DNA of 64,000 nucleotides from Methylocystis sp. ATCC 49242 (GTDB lineage: Bacteria; Pseudomonadota; Alphaproteobacteria; Rhizobiales; Beijerinckiaceae). Numbering within the stretch: position 1 is the stretch's first letter; each line of letters starts with the position of its first letter. Where the stretch lies: positions 2,300,356 through 2,364,355 of the forward strand of contig NZ_KE124774.1 of NCBI RefSeq assembly GCF_000188155.2. Reading direction: 5' to 3'. The notes under the pieces are model-generated. The model ran no database searches. It saw only the letters and a list, made by a program, of their open reading frames with translations, and was not told the DNA's origin. The position numbers and the translations under genes were made by a program. This document shows, piece after piece, positions 8,079 to 64,000 of this stretch.

Positions 8079-9380
8079 TTACTCCGCCTCGACATCCACG
8101 GGCGCGGGCCCGGTCTCGCGGTCGAGCTTGGGCGTGCGCTTGAAGGTCGATTTGCGGCCGCGCAGCGTCTGCAGGATTTTCGCGCCATTGGCGAAGGCGA
8201 GATAGATGAAGAGCGGCGGCACCGACCCGACGGTTTTGGCGTAATCCGCCACCGTGCCGCGCTTGAGCGCGAGATAGGGCGGCAGCGTCATGCCGAGGGC
8301 GACCATCAGCGTCATCACGACGACGAGCTCTAGTATGCCGTAGTAGGGCGCGAGCGAACCGTGAAGGATCGCGCCGATCACGAAGGCGATCAGGCCGATC
8401 GCGGCGGCCGGGAAAAAGATCTGATGGGCGATGAGCGAAATCGCCAGCACGCGCTTGGACAGGCTCCAGGGCGATCGCCAGATCGGAACGATGGTCTTCT
8501 GCGCGACCTGCACGAAACCGTTGGACCAGCGCCGCTGCTGGCGGCGGAAGTCGCGGATGCCCTCCGGCACCTGGCCGGGAATCGGCGGCTCCGAAACGAA
8601 GAGGCCGTGCCAGCCCTTGAGTTCGGCGCGCACGGTGAGATCGAGGTCTTCGCATAGCGAATAATCCGACCAGCCGCCCGCGTCCTCGATCGTCGCGCGA
8701 CGCCAGATCCCGCCCGTGCCATTGAACTGGAAGAGCCAGCCGGCGTGAGCGCGCGAGCGCTGCTCGATCATGTAATGCCCGTCCTGCACCAAGCCCTGCG
8801 CACGGGTGAGCCAGTTGGTTTCGTAATTCTGGAATTCGCAGCGCGACTGCACGAAGCCCGCGCGGTCGTCGGTGAGAAAGAGCGGCACGGTGCGCCTGAG
8901 CCAGTTCGGCGGCGGACGGAAGTCCGCGTCCAGCATGGCGATGAAGGGCTCGTCCGTCAGCGTGAGGCCATGGGCGCAGGCGCCGGCCTTGAAGCCGGAG
9001 CGATCCGCCCGGCGGACATGGTCGATCACCGTTCCGCCCGCGCGCAACTCCTCCGCCACGGCCGCGGCGCGCGCGCTCGTCTCGTCAGTGGAATCGTCGA
9101 GGAGCTGAATGCGGAGCTTGTCCTTCGGCCAGTCGAGCTGCGCGACGCAGCGCAGCGACTGCTCGGTGACGAGCGGCTCGTTGAACACGGGGATCTGCAG
9201 CAGCACATGCGGCAGATCGGCGTCGGCGCGCGCCGGCGCTTCGGGATCGCGCACGCCGCGCAGCTGATCATAGAGAAAGCGGCCGATCACGACGAGATAG
9301 CCGAGACCGATCGCAACGAGGATCAGGGCGCAGGCATACGCGACCGCGTCGACCAGAAATTGGAGGAGTCCGAGCAGCAA
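8079..9380 (-). CDS. Family 2 membrane glycosyltransferase, beta-glycan/glucomannan-synthase-like
   Basis: 433-residue inner-membrane GT2 enzyme. One or two N-terminal helices precede a cytosolic GT-A domain with LDDSTDET, the metal-binding MLDADF, EDLDL and the QQRRW motif, in the order D, DxD, ED, QxxRW seen in processive or CslA-like synthases. About four C-terminal membrane helices follow. It is the last gene of the seven-gene acyl/glycosyl operon, 4 nt after the GT21 gene. Substrate unknown; a glycan extension step on a lipid made by the upstream genes would fit (inference). Confidence 0.82.
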   Translation of the reverse strand: MLLGLLQFLVDAVAYACALILVAIGLGYLVVIGRFLYDQLRGVRDPEAPARADADLPHVLLQIPVFNEPLVTEQSLRCVAQLDWPKDKLRIQLLDDSTDETSARAAAVAEELRAGGTVIDHVRRADRSGFKAGACAHGLTLTDEPFIAMLDADFRPPPNWLRRTVPLFLTDDRAGFVQSRCEFQNYETNWLTRAQGLVQDGHYMIEQRSRAHAGWLFQFNGTGGIWRRATIEDAGGWSDYSLCEDLDLTVRAELKGWHGLFVSEPPIPGQVPEGIRDFRRQQRRWSNGFVQVAQKTIVPIWRSPWSLSKRVLAISLIAHQIFFPAAAIGLIAFVIGAILHGSLAPYYGILELVVVMTLMVALGMTLPPYLALKRGTVADYAKTVGSVPPLFIYLAFANGAKILQTLRGRKSTFKRTPKLDRETGPAPVDVEAE

Positions 9381-9384
9381 AAGG

Positions 9385-10545
9385 CTATCCTTCTTCGTGC
9401 GGGGTCGGCGCCGGCTGCGCAGCCGCGCGCGCGTGGACCGTATCCTTCGCCCAGACCACCCGGTCGGTCATCCAGGCGTTCACCCAGACCGCAAGCATCA
9501 TCGCCTCGCGTATAATGAAAACCGCGGGCGCCGCGTAAGATAACTGCCATCCTTTTGCCATGGAAAGCAATGTCTCCAAAGCAAACCACACCGCAAATGT
9601 GACGAGCGCCCCCGAAATCGGGCTCAAATCGACCATCGGCGCGGCGACGGCGCCCGCCGCAACCGCTGGAAGAGCTTGGCAGATCGGCTCCGCGAGGAAG
9701 GAAATCAGCTCGTCGTTGCGGCGTATGACGCTCCAGCGCAATTGACGGTTGTAGACATCGCCGAATTCGCGCGCGCCAAGCTCCTGCCGCACCGGCCGAT
9801 GTGAAAAAACGGGTTTCTGACCGATTCGCCGCATGGCCTTGGCGAGGGCGTTGTCCTCGCCGACGGTGTGCGAAATGGCGCCGAAGCCGCCGGCCCGAAG
9901 GAAGTCCGAGCGGCGAAAGAGCATGATCTTGCCGACGCCGTGCCCCTGCCCGAGACAGGAGGCGAGGAACAGCATGCGCGCATGCGGCCCGTTGATGATC
10001 GCCGCCTCGACATGGGCGGCGAAATTGTCGAGCCGCGCGCAATAGGGAATGGCGCAGACGAGGCCCACATCGTCATTGAGCTGTTTGAGATGCTCCGCGA
10101 GCGCGTCCGGCTCCAGCAGGACATTGGCGTCCTTCATGAAGATGACGTCGTTTTCGGCCTGCATGAAAGGCGCATACAGATTGTCCACCTTCGGGCTCGC
10201 CGCGAATTTCGCGGTCGAGCGAAGGATGCGGGCGGGAACGTCCGGATGGCGGGCGAAGATCTCCCGCATCTTCGCGACGGCGGGCAAGGCGAGATCGGCG
10301 GCCGCGACCGTCACTTTGAAATCCGGATAGTCCTGCGCCAGCGCCGATTCCTGCGTGCGCTCGAACTCCTCCTCCAGCAGTTTCACCGGCAGCACGATCG
10401 AGACCGGCGGCTGGTCGCGCCGCCTCGCGCGCCGCGCCGCGAGCCAGGGCTGCGCGATCGTGGCGACGACGGAAATGACCAGAAGCGCGATCGCGACCAC
10501 CCAATAGACGGCTGCAAACCACATGAGGGCGAGACCCGCCGTCAC
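9385..10545 (-). CDS. Ceramide-glucosyltransferase-like GT21 family protein
   Basis: 386-residue membrane glycosyltransferase. It has an N-terminal helix, a GT-A domain with MKDANV (D2) and GEDNALAK (D3), the terminal RQLRW (the Q/RxxRW signature), and a hydrophobic C-terminus of about two to three helices. HpnI of hopanoid clusters belongs to the same family, but no hopanoid gene is present here. The GTG start at 10545 overlaps the SDR stop by 4 nt (GTGA); the first ATG is at 10524, seven codons later. The family glycosylates lipid alcohols such as ceramide, so a lipid acceptor produced by the operon's acyl module is plausible. Confidence 0.78.
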   Translation of the reverse strand: MTAGLALMWFAAVYWVVAIALLVISVVATIAQPWLAARRARRRDQPPVSIVLPVKLLEEEFERTQESALAQDYPDFKVTVAAADLALPAVAKMREIFARHPDVPARILRSTAKFAASPKVDNLYAPFMQAENDVIFMKDANVLLEPDALAEHLKQLNDDVGLVCAIPYCARLDNFAAHVEAAIINGPHARMLFLASCLGQGHGVGKIMLFRRSDFLRAGGFGAISHTVGEDNALAKAMRRIGQKPVFSHRPVRQELGAREFGDVYNRQLRWSVIRRNDELISFLAEPICQALPAVAAGAVAAPMVDLSPISGALVTFAVWFALETLLSMAKGWQLSYAAPAVFIIREAMMLAVWVNAWMTDRVVWAKDTVHARAAAQPAPTPHEEG

Positions 10546-11333
10546 GACGGTTCGCGCTCGCTGGTTTCGGGCACCTCGACATGGAAGCGCCGCATGACGC
10601 TGTCGACCAGACCCGACGGCAAAAGGGTGAAGAAGCGCATTGCGAAATACATGTATCGCGGAAAGGCGATGACGTTCTTTCTTCGCTCCAGTCCGCGCTT
10701 GATGATTTGCGCCGCCTTCTCGTCCGAGATCGCGCCCGGCTGCCAGGACTTGGTGCGCGCCGACATGGGCGTCTCGACGAAGCCCGGAACAATCAGACTG
10801 ACCCGGACGCCGTGCGGCGCCAGCCGTCCGCGCAGGCAGTCGGCCCACATGTGAACGCTGGCCTTGGCCGCGCAATAGGAGGGCGAATAGGGAAGGCTGC
10901 GCACGCCCGCCATGGAGCCGACGATGACGATCTGCCCCCGCCCGCGGTCGCACATGGCCTCGATCGCGGGCTCGACCGTGTTGAAGACGCCCGCCACATT
11001 GATCGCCAGCATGGCCCGCACGGCTTCCGGCGTCTCCAGAACCTGCCCGGGCGAGAGCCCGGTGGCCACGCCCGCGTTGGCGAAGAGCACGTCAATCGGC
11101 CGCGCCGCATGGGCGGCCTGCACGAGCCTCGCCATGGCTTCACGGTCGCGCACGTCGGCGACGCGCGTCTCGACATCCGAGGCGCCCGCCGCGCGGCAGG
11201 CCTCCGCCGCGGCCTCGAGCCGCGTCCTGTCGCGCCCGAGGAGGCAGAGGCTCGCGCCATCCCTGGCGTATGCGAGCGCCAGCGCGCGGCCGATGCCGCT
11301 CGAGGCGCCGGTGATGAGAAGTCGCAGGGTCAT
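10542..11333 (-). CDS. Short-chain dehydrogenase/reductase, probable ketoreductase of the acyl module
   Basis: 263-residue classical SDR: TGASSGIG cofactor loop at the N-terminus, FANAGVA, catalytic Ser in VGSMAG and YCAAK active site. The C-terminus is longer than FabG and hydrophobic/basic (YMYFAMRFFTLLP), suggesting membrane association as in 3-ketodihydrosphingosine reductases. The start at 11333 overlaps the MaoC stop (ATGA). In this operon it would supply the beta-keto reduction step between ketosynthase and dehydratase (inference). Confidence 0.82.
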   Translation of the reverse strand: MTLRLLITGASSGIGRALALAYARDGASLCLLGRDRTRLEAAAEACRAAGASDVETRVADVRDREAMARLVQAAHAARPIDVLFANAGVATGLSPGQVLETPEAVRAMLAINVAGVFNTVEPAIEAMCDRGRGQIVIVGSMAGVRSLPYSPSYCAAKASVHMWADCLRGRLAPHGVRVSLIVPGFVETPMSARTKSWQPGAISDEKAAQIIKRGLERRKNVIAFPRYMYFAMRFFTLLPSGLVDSVMRRFHVEVPETSEREPS

Positions 11334-11737
11334 GCTCCGGAAGTCGCGGGTCGCAGCGTCGCCTCGCCGATGATCCCCGGCGTGCGCGCCGCGCCATGGG
11401 CGAAAAGGCGCAGGAAAACCTCCGTCTCCGATGCGCGCAGGACGCGGCCGGAGAGCGTCACTGTCTCGCCACGCAGGATCGGCTGGATGAATTTGCCCGA
11501 AAGCCCGACCAGAACGAGGTCGCCGCGCCATTTCTTCAGCATCGGCTCGAAGGCCGCGAGCAGCTTCATTCCATGCACCGGCGGCGCGGCGAGGCCGATC
11601 TTCGCCGCGAGCGAATCGTCGAGATGCAGCGGATTGTCGTCGCCCGAGACCGCCGCATAACGCTCGAGCGCCTGCGCGTCGAAGGGGCCGATCACAGTCT
11701 CCGGCAGCTTGTCGCCGACCTTGATCGCGACGCTCAT
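11330..11737 (-). CDS. MaoC-like (R)-specific hydratase/dehydratase, catalytic hot-dog subunit
   Basis: 135-residue single hot-dog protein with the hydratase-2 signature GDDNPLHLD (D33/D34, N35, H38) followed by PPVHGM. These supply the catalytic Asp and His of MaoC/(R)-enoyl hydratases. It overlaps its upstream partner, a second hot-dog protein lacking this motif, by 4 nt. The pair resembles the non-catalytic and catalytic halves of heterodimeric dehydratases such as mycobacterial HadAB (analogy, not shown). Confidence 0.8.
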   Translation of the reverse strand: MSVAIKVGDKLPETVIGPFDAQALERYAAVSGDDNPLHLDDSLAAKIGLAAPPVHGMKLLAAFEPMLKKWRGDLVLVGLSGKFIQPILRGETVTLSGRVLRASETEVFLRLFAHGAARTPGIIGEATLRPATSGA

Positions 11738-12132
11738 GATGCGCTCCCCAGTCCCGCGCGCGGCACGAGGCGCAGCACGGTCTCGATTCGCGCGACGCGC
11801 CCGCCGGCCGGCGTCGCGACAGTCGCTTCGAGGACGAGGCGCGGCGGCGTTTCCTCGCGTCGCATCGTCACCGACACATCATAGCTCTCGCCCGCGACGA
11901 GCGGCGTCTCATTGTCGAAGCTCTGCGATTCATGGACGGGCACGACGTCCAGCGCCGCGCACAAATCCTTCACCCGGTCGAAAAGCGCGGGATCAGTCAG
12001 CCAGAGGGCCGGATAGCAGAGCGGGGGCGCGCCGCTCCCGTCGCCCCCCGTCTCGAGTCCATAGGCGCGCGCCCGCTCGGGGTCGACGCGAAGCCTGAAT
12101 GGTCCGAGCGTGGTCGGCGCGTCAGGCGGCAT
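11734..12132 (-). CDS. Non-catalytic hot-dog protein, MaoC N-terminal-domain-like
   Basis: 132-residue protein with the pattern of a MaoC-like N-terminal hot-dog: a YPALWLTD segment near residue 40, then strands VAGESYDVSV and PRLVLEATV. It lacks the D-x-N-x-x-H catalytic motif. It sits between the ketosynthase (11-nt overlap) and the catalytic MaoC protein (4-nt overlap). The likely role is the substrate-binding partner of a two-subunit dehydratase. Family assignment rests on fold-level pattern only. Confidence 0.6.
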   Translation of the reverse strand: MPPDAPTTLGPFRLRVDPERARAYGLETGGDGSGAPPLCYPALWLTDPALFDRVKDLCAALDVVPVHESQSFDNETPLVAGESYDVSVTMRREETPPRLVLEATVATPAGGRVARIETVLRLVPRAGLGSAS

Positions 12133-13354
12133 GGCGGACGATCAGCACGGCGTTGATGCCGCCGAAGGCGAAAGAATTGGACATGGCCGCGCCGATGCTG
12201 TGCGGGCGCGCCACATTGGGCACGGCGTCGATGGGGCATCGGGGATCGTGTTCGAGGAAATTGATCGTCGGCGGGACGGTCTGCTCGCGCAGCGCATGAA
12301 TCGTGATGGCGAGCTCCAGACCGCCGCTCGCTCCGAGCGCATGGCCGTGGATGGGTTTCGTCGAGGAAACGGGAACCTCTCGCCCGTAGTCGCCGAAGAC
12401 GCGCAGGATCGCTTCCGACTCCGTGATGTCGTTGGCGTGCGTCGCCGTGCCGTGGGCGTTGATGTAGTGAATGTCCCGCGCCGCGAGACCGGCGTCCGCC
12501 AGCGCGGCGGAGATGCAGCTCGAGGCCCCGTCGAGATCCGGCCGCACGGGATCCTTGGCGTCGCTCGTCGTGCCGTAGCCGGCGAGTTCGCAGAGCGGCT
12601 CATGGCCGCGCGCGCGCGCCGACTCCGCCGTCTCCAGCACGAACACGGCCGCGCCCTCGCCGAGCGACATGCCGTTGCGCCCCTTCGAGAAAGGCCGGCA
12701 GAGATTGGGGGTCATCACCCGGAGGCCCTCCCAGGCGCGGATGGTGGCGTTGATGACACACGCCTCCGCGCCGCCCACGATCGCCTTGTCGACCATGCCG
12801 GAGCGGATCATCTGCATGCCGAGGCCCACCGACTGGCTCGCCGACGAGCAGGCGCTTCCGATGGCGAAGGTGGGGCCGAGCGCCTTGAAGCGCGCGCCGA
12901 TCGTTGTCGGCATGGCGCTCGGGATCAGCTTGGGCACGCTCAGCGTCTCGGGACGCGTATGTTCAACATAATATTTGTAGATGCCGTCCTCGATGGTCGT
13001 CATGCCGCCGATGCCGGTGCCCAGAATCACGGCGGTGCGCGGCCCCGCAATGTCCATGCGGCCGAAGCCCGCCTGCGCCATCGCCTCGTCGGCTGCGACG
13101 ACGGCGAATTGCGTGAAGGGATCGCAAAAGGGCAGAACTTCCGGCTCGATATATTCGGCCGGGTCGAATTCCGGCACCTGCGCCGCGATCTTGATCCGCC
13201 CGTCATAAGGCCGCTCGGTCTTCAGCTCGCGAACCTGGCTGACGCCGTCGCGGGCAGCCTCCCACAGCTTGCGCGCGCCGACGCCGGAGGCGCAGACCGC
13301 GCCCATGCCGGAGATGACGACGCGGCGTCCTCCGTCCGCCCGCGAATCCGCCAT
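12122..13354 (-). CDS. Beta-ketoacyl-ACP synthase (KAS II/FabF- or NodE-like)
   Basis: 410-residue condensing enzyme with the full Cys-His-His set: C169 in SACSSA, H301 in NAHGTATH and H338 with K333 in KPIHGHALGA. The sequence is complete and close to FabF length. It starts directly after the stop of a dedicated acyl carrier protein gene and is coupled to dehydratase and reductase genes, so it probably elongates a specialised acyl chain rather than serving housekeeping fatty acid synthesis. The dedicated ACP plus KAS arrangement recalls NodF-NodE and the AcpXL clusters, but neither nod nor lpxXL-type genes are here. Confidence 0.88.
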   Translation of the reverse strand: MADSRADGGRRVVISGMGAVCASGVGARKLWEAARDGVSQVRELKTERPYDGRIKIAAQVPEFDPAEYIEPEVLPFCDPFTQFAVVAADEAMAQAGFGRMDIAGPRTAVILGTGIGGMTTIEDGIYKYYVEHTRPETLSVPKLIPSAMPTTIGARFKALGPTFAIGSACSSASQSVGLGMQMIRSGMVDKAIVGGAEACVINATIRAWEGLRVMTPNLCRPFSKGRNGMSLGEGAAVFVLETAESARARGHEPLCELAGYGTTSDAKDPVRPDLDGASSCISAALADAGLAARDIHYINAHGTATHANDITESEAILRVFGDYGREVPVSSTKPIHGHALGASGGLELAITIHALREQTVPPTINFLEHDPRCPIDAVPNVARPHSIGAAMSNSFAFGGINAVLIVRHAA

Positions 13355-13630
13355 TTACTGGTTCTCACGCTCTTTCTGGATGTGCTCGGCGATGGCGCTG
13401 ATCAGGCTCTCCACCGTCTTCGCCTCCTGCAGCGACCCGTCCATGGGGATGTAGACGTTGAATTTTTCCTCCAGCGCCGTGAGGATCATGACGATGTCGA
13501 CCGATTTCAGGTCGAGGCTCTCGATTGTCGCGTCGGGCGTGACCTTGGTGCGGTCCACCATGCCCTCGGAAGCGATCACTTCGATGATTTCTTCCTTGAG
13601 CCTGGCGATGTCTTGCGGATTATCTGTCAC
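13355..13630 (-). CDS. Specialised acyl carrier protein
   Basis: 91-residue acidic four-helix carrier protein. The phosphopantetheine serine is S43 in DLKSVD, replacing the DSLD of housekeeping AcpP. The next helix begins IVMILTALEEKF, as in family members. It is the first gene of the seven-gene operon running to 8079 and abuts the ketosynthase with no gap, so it likely carries the growing chain for that enzyme. The sequence is clearly different from both canonical AcpP and AcpXL, marking a dedicated pathway. Confidence 0.88.
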   Translation of the reverse strand: MTDNPQDIARLKEEIIEVIASEGMVDRTKVTPDATIESLDLKSVDIVMILTALEEKFNVYIPMDGSLQEAKTVESLISAIAEHIQKERENQ

Positions 13631-13913: not shown

Positions 13914-15779
13914 ATGACTGCGCATGAGACAGCGATCGCCGGAGTTTTTCCACAGCCGACCGAAGAACAATGGCGCAAACTCGTCGACAAGGCGCTGAAA
14001 GGCGCGTCCTTCGACACGCTCGTCTCGAAGACCTATGGCGGCGTCGCTCTCGCCCCGCTCTACCCCCGCGCGGCCGCCGCCGGCCCGCGCGCTCTGCGCC
14101 GCACCCCCGGCCGCTGGTCGATCCTCGGCCGCGTCGATCTCGCCGACGCTGACGCCGCCAACCGCTTCGCCATCGAGGACCTCGAAGGCGGCGCCGATGG
14201 TCTGCATATCGTCTTCGCGGGCTCTCAGGGCGCCTATGGCGGCGGCCTGACGAGCGACAGCGACGAGACGATCGGGCGTCTCCTCGCCAATGTCCGGCTG
14301 GATTACGGCATCCCGGTGCTGGTCGAGGCGTCGCCCCGCGCGCCCGGCGCCGCCGCGGCGATCATCCGCCTCGTCGACAGCCAGCACATCGACCCGTCCA
14401 TCACCCGGATCTCTCTGGGCTACGACCCGCTCGGCCTGCAAGCGCTGCACGGCTTCGCGCCGGCGCCATGGCCGCAAGAGTCCAAGTCCTTCGCCGCCGC
14501 CGCCAAAGCCGCGGCCGCTGCCGGGTTCACGAGCGGCGCCGTCGTCGCCGACGCAAGGGTGATCCACGCCGCCGGCGGCGAGGAGACGCAGGAGCTCGCT
14601 TTCGCCCTTTCGGCGGCGGTCGCCTATCTGCGCGCGCTGGCCGACAATGGCCTCGATCTCGAAACCGCCCGCGCGCTCATCGCCTTCCGCCTCGCCGCCG
14701 ACGCCGACGAATTCCTGGGCGTCGCGAAGTTCCGCGCGATCCGCCGCCTCTGGGCGCGCGTCGAGGAGGCCTGCGGCCTCACGCCGAAACCGGCGCTGAT
14801 CTTCGCGGAGACCGCCTGGCGCATGATGTCGCGTCGCGACCCGTGGAACAACATTTTGCGCGGAACGCTCGCGACCTTCTCGGCGGCCATCGGCGGCGCC
14901 GACACGATCACCGTCCTGCCCTTCACGCAGGCGCTCGGCGCGCCGGACAGCTTCGCCCATCGCCTCGCCCGCGACACGCAGCTGGTCCTTCAGGACGAAT
15001 CCCATATCGACGTTGTCGACGATCCGACGAGCGGCGCCGGCGGTTTTGAGACGCTGACGCAGGAGCTTTGCGAGCGCGCATGGGCCGCGTTCCAGCAGAT
15101 CGAGGCCGAGGGTGGATTGCCCGCCTCGCTGGAGAAGGGAACCTTCCAGGGCCGCGTGGCGGAGACCGCCGGCGAGCGAGCGAAAAAGGTCGCGCGCGCC
15201 CGTGAGAAGATCATCGGAGCCAATGAGTTCCCGGATATCCACGAAAAGGCGCTCGATGTGCTGGCGCCCTTCGACGCCTCACGCCAGAACGCCGAGGCGC
15301 CGGCCGGCGCGCCGAAGACGGCGGCGCTCGCGCCCCGCCGCCTCTCCGAGCCTTTCGAGCGGCTGCGCGACGCGTCCGACGCCCATGCCGCAAAAACAGG
15401 CGCCCGCCCGCGCGTCTTCCTCGCCAATCTCGGCTCGGTCGCGGCTTTCACCGCGCGCGCCAATTTCGCCAAGAACTTCTTCGAGGCGGGCGGCGTCGAA
15501 GCGGTCTTCGGCCCGGAAACCGATTCGAGCGCGGAGATCGCCAGGGCTTTTCGCGATTCTGGCGCGAAACTCGCTTGCCTGTGTTCGTCGGACCGGATTT
15601 ACGGCGATATGGCGGAGGCGGTCGCTATCGCTCTCAAGGGCGCGGGCGCTAAGCTCTATCTCGCCGGCCGGCCGGGGGAACTGGAAGACCGGCTGCGCCG
15701 CTCGGGCGTCGGCGAATTCATCTATGTGGGCTGCGACATGCACGACGTGCTGCAGCGCGCCCTCGAGGAGGCCAAATGA
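13914..15779 (+). CDS. mutA: Methylmalonyl-CoA mutase small (beta) subunit
   Basis: 621-residue subunit of the adenosylcobalamin enzyme interconverting methylmalonyl- and succinyl-CoA (propionate or ethylmalonyl-CoA pathway). It has an N-terminal TIM-barrel part and a C-terminal flavodoxin-like domain (VFLANLGSVAAFTARANF). The DxHxxG cobalamin-ligand motif is absent, the normal state for the non-catalytic small subunit. The catalytic large subunit is not adjacent: the next gene is a small secreted protein overlapping by 4 nt. pccB, from the same pathway, lies 31 kb away. Weak candidate promoter elements lie near 13797-13825. Confidence 0.92.
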   Translation: MTAHETAIAGVFPQPTEEQWRKLVDKALKGASFDTLVSKTYGGVALAPLYPRAAAAGPRALRRTPGRWSILGRVDLADADAANRFAIEDLEGGADGLHIVFAGSQGAYGGGLTSDSDETIGRLLANVRLDYGIPVLVEASPRAPGAAAAIIRLVDSQHIDPSITRISLGYDPLGLQALHGFAPAPWPQESKSFAAAAKAAAAAGFTSGAVVADARVIHAAGGEETQELAFALSAAVAYLRALADNGLDLETARALIAFRLAADADEFLGVAKFRAIRRLWARVEEACGLTPKPALIFAETAWRMMSRRDPWNNILRGTLATFSAAIGGADTITVLPFTQALGAPDSFAHRLARDTQLVLQDESHIDVVDDPTSGAGGFETLTQELCERAWAAFQQIEAEGGLPASLEKGTFQGRVAETAGERAKKVARAREKIIGANEFPDIHEKALDVLAPFDASRQNAEAPAGAPKTAALAPRRLSEPFERLRDASDAHAAKTGARPRVFLANLGSVAAFTARANFAKNFFEAGGVEAVFGPETDSSAEIARAFRDSGAKLACLCSSDRIYGDMAEAVAIALKGAGAKLYLAGRPGELEDRLRRSGVGEFIYVGCDMHDVLQRALEEAK

Positions 15780-63351: not shown

Positions 63352-64000
63352 GTGACGAAGCACAGAAGCCTCTCGGACTATGCGTCGCGGAGATTCCGCC
63401 TCGCGGGCAACGCCCTGCTCGAGTTCAACAACCCCTTCTTCGCCCAGATCGACAAGCTGCGCGCCGATTTCGAGGCGCAGGGCACGCATTTCGTTAGCTT
63501 CGCCAATTACGACTATCTGGGCCTCGCGAATCACCCCCGCATCCGCGAGGAGGCCAAGCGCGAGGTCGACAATCTCGGCATTGGCGCCCTGGCGTCGCGG
63601 CTCGTCGGCGGCGAGCGCACGACCCACAAGCAGTTCGAGGCGGAGATCGCGAGATTCATCGGCATGGAGAGCGCGCTGGCGCTGGTCTCCGGCTATCTCG
63701 CCAATGTGACGACGATCGCCTATCTGATGAACGGCAAGCGCGACGCCATTTTCATCGACGAACTCGCGCACAACAGCATCGTCTACGGCGCCGAGGGCGC
63801 GCCCGCCCATGTCGTCAAGTTCCGCCACAACGACATGGATCACCTGGACCATCTGCTGGCGCGCCATCGCGAGGAATATCGCAATGTGCTCGTCGTGGTC
63901 GAAGGCGTCTACAGCATGGACGGCGACACCGCCGACCTGCCGCGTCTCTACGAGATCAAGGACAAATACAAGATCTGGCTGATGGTCGACGAGGCCCATT
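63352..64000 (+). CDS. Alpha-oxoamine synthase (serine palmitoyltransferase / KBL / BioF family), 5' part only
   Basis: The frame is open to the window end (216 codons visible). It begins GTG with no strong Shine-Dalgarno. Family features: FANYDYLGLANHPRIREEA, GALASRLVGGERTTHKQFEAEIARF, then IDELAHNSIVYGA and VEGVYSMDGDTADL and, at the edge, VDEAH (PLP Asp and His). It condenses an acyl-CoA or acyl-ACP with an amino acid. Whether serine (sphingoid base), glycine or alanine is used cannot be decided; the catalytic Lys lies beyond the window. If a serine palmitoyltransferase, it could supply a lipid for the GT21 operon at 8-13.6 kb (speculative). Confidence 0.8.
   Translation, partial: MTKHRSLSDYASRRFRLAGNALLEFNNPFFAQIDKLRADFEAQGTHFVSFANYDYLGLANHPRIREEAKREVDNLGIGALASRLVGGERTTHKQFEAEIARFIGMESALALVSGYLANVTTIAYLMNGKRDAIFIDELAHNSIVYGAEGAPAHVVKFRHNDMDHLDHLLARHREEYRNVLVVVEGVYSMDGDTADLPRLYEIKDKYKIWLMVDEAH

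Follow-up and report, generated by a model that had tools for sequence, protein, structure and literature searches.

Methylocystis sp. ATCC 49242 carries seven consecutive genes that encode an acyl carrier protein (ACP), a FabF-like ketosynthase (KS), two hot-dog proteins (HD1 and HD2), a short-chain dehydrogenase/reductase (SDR) and two glycosyltransferases (GT21 and GT2), and the question that this operon raises is what these proteins make together. The genes lie within the 64,000-nucleotide (nt) stretch of DNA analyzed here (hereafter the window; G000:C6:2300356-2364355 of the 4.7-Mb genome assembly). An initial annotation of this DNA had proposed a glycolipid built on a special acyl chain. 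An acyl module followed by two transferases does make a glycolipid probable, but the sphingolipid-type partner genes that begin at position 63352 had been missed. We propose that the operon is probably one half of a divergent bacterial pathway for (glyco)sphingolipids, the half that supplies acyl chains and attaches sugars, and that the partner locus would be the other half. The product is thereby refined from a glycolipid of no known kind to what is probably a glycosphingolipid-type lipid. In favor of this reading, relatives of this bacterium have the operon genes next to genes of ceramide type. Sphingolipids are membrane lipids better known from plants, fungi and animals.

All seven open reading frames (ORFs) were confirmed at 8079-13630 on the minus strand, in the order ACP, KS, HD1, HD2, SDR, GT21, GT2 given by the initial annotation, with start codons picked from ORF lists. 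The ACP (13630-13355; PF00550, E 1.2e-6) has, by homology, its phosphopantetheine serine in the motif DLKSVD. The KS (13354-12122) matches the N- and C-terminal ketoacyl synthase families (PF00109/PF02801) and scores 377 bits on TIGR03150, below the cut-off of 494; its cysteine (SACSSAS) and two histidines (NAHGTATH and KPIHGHALG) can be read from the sequence, in agreement with the complete Cys-His-His ketosynthase reported previously. HD1 (12132-11734) and HD2 (11737-11330) follow, and then the SDR (11333-10542; adh_short PF00106, E 8e-48), GT21 (10545-9385, GTG start; Glyco_transf_21 PF13506, E 4e-43) and the processive-type GT2 (9380-8079, TTG start; Glyco_trans_2_3 PF13632, E 9e-25). The successive junctions are 0 nt, an 11-nt overlap between KS and HD1, three 4-nt overlaps, and a 4-nt gap between GT21 and GT2.

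The partner set starts approximately 50 kb from the operon, at the right edge of the window. Its first gene, on the plus strand, encodes an alpha-oxoamine synthase (AOS) resembling serine palmitoyltransferase (Spt), and runs from 63352 to 64000 and past the window end (G000:C6:2363707-2364945). Beyond the window it is followed by genes for a YghO/bCerS-like acyltransferase, a Lipid_DES desaturase and an Scs7-like FA_hydroxylase (L111:3708-7884), the AOS and the 387-aa acyltransferase together spanning G000:C6:2363707-2366225. The set was first met in loci without GT21 such as L083, where genes for an AOS, a Pfam-less protein of ~387 aa and a Lipid_DES desaturase face the operon; the counterparts in our genome are 63% (AOS) and 58% (387-aa protein) identical. 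With 36% identity to YghO of Escherichia coli B over 381 aa (E 1.5e-80), the acyltransferase falls with bCerS/aca proteins, and yghO is one of five genes for dihydroceramide in E. coli B (PMC9386255). The only PDB matches of the hydroxylase are to yeast Scs7 (E 2.9e-23). The desaturase passes the Pfam Lipid_DES threshold (35.7 vs. 23 bits) and had no PDB match in a sequence search. Among the 60 distant YghO-like loci that were kept (36-41% identity; many of them short, and including Reyranella, Enhydrobacter, Stutzerimonas, Salinicola and Nitrosospira), 24 carry an AOS together with a CerR-like epimerase, and in 5 others the AOS occurs without one.

The two halves go together in other genomes. 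HD1 is present in 75 of the 248 genomes of the family (10 of 43 genera). A close YghO-like gene, defined by at least 54% identity (65 of 83 genomes, the 18 at 27-42% being left out), occurs in 63 of these 75, and conversely HD1 is found in 63 of the 65 genomes with a close YghO-like gene. Both genes lie within 12 kb of each other in 19 of the 63 genomes that have both, representing six genera. Nine of 37 operon loci also carry the AOS, the YghO-like gene and the desaturase. The clearest case is L077 (genus g138), which holds all eleven genes, ACP-KS-HD1-HD2-SDR-GT21-GT2 facing hydroxylase-desaturase-acyltransferase-AOS, and L088/L156 (g114) has the same eleven plus an extra SDR. Among the 20 closest loci, those in which AOS, YghO-like, ACP and KS genes stand together include Beijerinckia sp. 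L45 (L163) and four metagenome-assembled genomes (MAGs; L150, L155, L156 and L161). In Methylosinus sp. Sm6 (L162:10001-11138) a YghO-like gene is split over two reading-frame matches, and neither an AOS nor a desaturase was matched at that locus; it is perhaps a decaying extra copy.

The initial annotation had asked whether the gene order is conserved outside this strain. Seven proteins were mapped onto 37 operon loci (L066-L102) drawn from all ten HD1-positive genera, and ACP, KS and HD1 were present in all 37, so that the arrangement is not a peculiarity of one strain. HD2 was found in 34 loci, SDR and GT2 in 29 each, and GT21 in 19. The seven-gene set is more than a chance assembly, since it is complete in 19 of the 37 loci, including 11/11 in g1 (the genus Methylocystis), 5/5 in g138, 2/2 in g114 and 1/1 in g106. 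In the g118, g136, g107 and g131 loci read, no GT21 was detected within the operon, and in the two g102 loci ACP-KS-HD1 was all that was found. A MAG labeled Caenispirillum (L183:1786-8659), outside the family by its record label, carries YghO-like, ACP, KS, HD1, HD2 and ABC transporter genes, with a GT4-type glycosyltransferase gene on the other strand; the transporter is a possible exporter for the product. When the HD1 profile was run over 385 genomes of the class, our own genome was the sole match, which is weak evidence of absence because at most ten candidates were scored per genome.

No Pfam family matches HD1 itself, and its PDB sequence match, HtdX, is weak (E 0.19); among 30 relatives, weak matches were obtained to PF13452 in four (best E 0.045) and to 4HBT_2 in two (best E 0.037). 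Its AlphaFold2 model (pLDDT 88) has a hot-dog fold, and the best PDB match found with Foldseek is chain A of 4rlt, Mycobacterium tuberculosis HadAB (E 4.9e-6, TM 0.66, 16% identity), the partner of the chain named HadB. Other HadAB/HadBC chains are matched as well, and hot-dog thioesterases rank lower. HD2 is a MaoC/HadB-like protein (MaoC_dehydratas PF01575, E 8e-13; NCBIfam HadB 46 bits, below the cut-off of 203) whose PDB matches are MaoC/HadB chains. It contains SGDDNPLH, which we take to be the MaoC hydratase motif and which is absent from HD1. Because the HD1 model is HadA-like and only HD2 has the motif, the predicted non-catalytic/catalytic pair, already recognized in the initial annotation, is well supported. 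As in mycobacterial HadAB, a motif-less HadA-like subunit adjoins a motif-bearing one; here the pair sits in a small ACP-KS operon, and HD1 is only ~16% identical to its best HadAB match.

Several observations weigh against a sphingolipid product, and they are considered here with the alternatives on which they bear. The co-occurrence of HD1 and the YghO-like gene has a Fisher p of 7e-44 that ignores shared ancestry and is uncorrected for it. The two genes are more than 12 kb apart or on different contigs in 44 of the 63 genomes that have both: 10 (all g1) have them 41-83 kb apart, 13 farther apart on the same contig, and 21 on separate contigs. Genus g129 departs from the pattern: its four loci read (L085, L089, L090 and L096) are ACP-KS-HD1-HD2 without SDR, GT21 and GT2, and it accounts for 11 of the 12 genomes that have HD1 but no close YghO-like gene. 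An AOS at 45% identity occurs in two of 11 g129 genomes, in one of which (G315) it adjoins a 31% YghO-like gene; the other nine have 33-37% matches only. In g129 the core thus has another use or other partners.

Such a core, in which an epimerase-type reductase follows ACP-KS-HD1-HD2 in three of the four loci, agrees with an acyl module that different genera recruited independently and that supplies an unusual chain (very long, or 3-hydroxy/unsaturated) to an envelope lipid such as lipid A or hopanoids. We consider this quite unlikely. The ACP is below the cut-offs of every NCBIfam ACP model listed, including NF005079, which we take to represent AcpXL (27 bits vs. a cut-off of 83), and GT21 was rejected as a curated HpnI (TIGR03472, 157 vs. 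310 bits); the earlier exclusion of an AcpXL/lipid A or hopanoid cluster thus holds. The near neighbors to which a name could be given comprise a small-subunit-type methylmalonyl-CoA mutase, a DsbD N-terminal domain protein, YqgE and an aldo-keto reductase, with no lpx or hpn gene among them (the others had no match, and no genome-wide lpx/hpn search was made). The presence of the bCerS homologue in 63 of 75 HD1 genomes also argues against this alternative.

GT21 passes PF13506 with ease (147 vs. 21.7 bits), and its only PDB matches at E <= 0.1 are to ceramide glucosyltransferase (E 1e-31, 113.5 bits). A second GT21 of the genome (G000:C6:3655330-3656448; L104:9328-10470), 29% identical to that of the operon, scores higher on the same enzyme (137 vs. 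113.5 bits; E 6e-39), and its four tested neighbors encode glutamate-tRNA ligase, a chromate transporter, class II DAHP synthase and glutathione reductase. Since the paralogue scores higher, likeness to ceramide glucosyltransferase does not discriminate in favor of ceramide, and it was rejected as proof of the acceptor. GT2 has CelA/PgaC-like NCBIfam matches below cut-off and matches cellulose synthases in the PDB (E 8e-17). With ceramide glucosyltransferase, HpnI and rhizobial Pgt, which we take to be a further GT21-type enzyme, the operon GT21 shares PF13506 and overall sequence likeness; it differs in falling short of the HpnI cut-off, and its acceptor assignment is putative.

The operon could instead serve a diacylglycerol glycolipid with a special acyl chain, for example the monoglycosyldiacylglycerol (MGDG) of Methylosinus, and the ceramide-type link would then be a matter of neighborhood. 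Agrobacterium Pgt prefers diacylglycerol over ceramide (PMC3972451), the MGDG of Methylosinus trichosporium OB3b is made by a transferase described as unidentified (PMC9239053), and 18 of the 37 loci lack GT21, with GT2 retained in 10 of these 18. Nevertheless, we regard this explanation as unlikely. Linkage to AOS and bCerS homologues recurs in six genera, and in Methylocapsa acidiphila a GT21 (46% identical) lies within the AOS operon itself (L154), the ACP operon taken as its counterpart (L101) having GT2 only and no GT21. In addition, a diacylglycerol lipid should need no ACP-KS-dehydratase set of its own.

The AOS is 33.5% identical to E. coli B Spt over 385 aa and equally near BioF, Kbl and Spt (30-32%). 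It falls below all three NCBIfam Spt cut-offs (best 295 vs. 500 bits) and scores higher on BioF (342 bits), though under the cut-off of that model too (426). In a 62-row tree, which was limited to stop-free rows of 330-560 aa and does not contain our own-genome match L108, the AOS of the family form a long-branched clade of their own, separate from canonical Spt and tentative in its deep placement. AOS outside the Spt-like clade probably have other functions according to a Black Sea study (PMC11334938). These data leave room for an enzyme that uses an amino acid other than serine and so yields a sphingolipid analogue (a 1-deoxy or other amino-ketone lipid), still N-acylated and glycosylated, which we consider unlikely. 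In the alignment, the AOS and four Spt rows have in common a lysine box, S-K-[ST], in which we presume the position of the lysine, and six columns link the AOS with Spt against four Kbl/BioF-type rows, compared with three columns that go the opposite way. Ceramide glucosyltransferases act on the 1-hydroxyl, which 1-deoxy bases lack, and a glycosylated 1-deoxy product would sit poorly with GT21.

Other canonical ceramide steps are also hard to find in the genome of Methylocystis sp. ATCC 49242. No clear CerR was found (best match 31%, E 3e-11), and the SDR is proposed to take its place. There is also no AcpR next to spt, as the operon ACP lies in another locus and is only weakly AcpR-like (25% over 61 aa against that of E. 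coli B, E 2e-4). No clear AasR was found either: the best match (35%, E 7e-90) belongs to a fusion protein, encoded elsewhere, that combines ACP, AMP-binding and acyltransferase parts. At G000:C6:3963187-3964749 (L231:1039-3894) lies an ORF of 951 aa that unites PP-binding, AMP-binding and acyltransferase domains in a single polypeptide.

Returning to the sphingolipid reading, we infer the chemistry of the pathway from the protein families. ACP, KS and the HadAB-like pair would elongate an acyl-ACP, the reductive steps falling to the SDR or to the housekeeping enzymes FabG/FabI, and this discrete fatty-acid-synthase-like module would replace AcpR/AasR of known pathways. The AOS would join serine, or an amino acid like it, to the acyl thioester, the SDR would reduce the 3-keto group, and the YghO-like enzyme would N-acylate the base. 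The product of the ACP module could end up either as the long-chain base or as the N-acyl chain. The desaturase and the Scs7-like hydroxylase would then decorate the chains, after which GT21 would attach an initial sugar and GT2 would extend it by another. If enoyl reduction were skipped, a trans-2-enoyl-ACP would directly yield a Delta4-unsaturated base.

The assignment of the SDR deserves comment. The initial annotation had described an elongation cycle lacking only enoyl reduction, but the SDR may be a 3-keto-sphingoid reductase rather than a ketoacyl-ACP reductase of the cycle. The sphingoid role is favored because an Acetobacteraceae bacterium outside the family by label (KSS8, L165) has an AOS-SDR pair divergent from its YghO-like gene, the SDR being 39% identical to ours, and because L088 has an extra SDR. 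The latter (L156:12870-13706 = L088:5002-5838; 35% identical to the operon SDR) is the last gene of the g114 AOS operon. The SDR may instead serve elongation, and the epimerase found in its place in g129 favors neither role.

A promoter/terminator scan gave no promoter-like site, and 6 terminator-like sites compared with 3.7 expected. A methylmalonyl-CoA mutase-like gene (13914-15779), of small-subunit type by NCBIfam at a score below cut-off, is divergent from the operon. Of the 16 loci read in g1 and g138, 14 retain it beside the ACP gene. Elsewhere in the genome, a second KS (G000:C6:3243793-3244958; L002:1396-2691) with 74% DNA identity to the operon KS adjoins the gene for ribosomal protein L25; it could be a further condensing enzyme of the same pathway.

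In a broader form, which we advance tentatively and hold somewhat short of an even chance, type II methanotrophs and Beijerinckiaceae-type relatives would make glycosylated sphingolipids by a route not yet described, in which the discrete ACP-KS-HadAB-like module delivers acyl-ACP directly to a non-canonical AOS and eukaryote-like tailoring by a DES-like desaturase, an Scs7-like hydroxylase and GT21 follows. Among the open-licence titles listed, no paper on sphingolipids of Methylocystis, Beijerinckiaceae or methanotrophs was found. A point against the proposal is that the available text of a M. trichosporium OB3b lipidomics study names no ceramide and has a sphingolipid only as an added standard (PMC9239053). 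A 2020 survey of type strains still described sphingolipids as confined, within Alphaproteobacteria, to Sphingomonadales (PMC7179689), although their synthesis by Caulobacter has since become known (PMC11087976). If the proposal is true, glycosphingolipid-type lipids would be added to globally important methane oxidizers, in which sphingolipids are not a recognized trait among the open-licence papers searched. It would also mean that bacteria have one more means of supplying the enzyme that opens sphingolipid synthesis, in addition to AcpR/AasR and a type I polyketide synthase (PKS). Because L077 unites a ceramide-synthase-like gene, a DES-like desaturase, an Scs7-like hydroxylase and a GT21 in one bacterial locus, the idea is directly testable.

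Among the open-licence titles listed, we recognized none that describes separate ACP, KS and dehydratase proteins linked with an AOS and a bCerS homologue and accompanied by GT21/GT2. The closest known system is the rhodobacterial ceramide pathway of Caulobacter and E. coli B (spt, acpR, aasR, epi/cerR and aca/bCerS; PMC9386255), in which AcpR and AasR supply the acyl thioester to Spt. It has in common with the genes described here an AOS, a dedicated ACP and an N-acyltransferase of the YghO/bCerS family. In contrast, Methylocystis sp. ATCC 49242 has no clear AasR or CerR, a KS and a HadAB-like pair stand beside its ACP, its AOS belongs to a separate clade, and a desaturase, an Scs7-like hydroxylase, GT21 and GT2 are added. 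Because two defining features of the rhodobacterial pathway were not found, the operon and its partner are classed as a putative variant that would work like that pathway, outside strict membership. A second parallel is provided by SgaA/SgaB of Pseudomonas fluorescens, an iterative type I PKS and an AOS that make sphingolipids (PMC12134224). There, too, a dedicated chain-building machine is coupled to an AOS; here the machine would consist of discrete proteins instead of one type I PKS, and ceramide-synthase-like and glycosylation genes are present.

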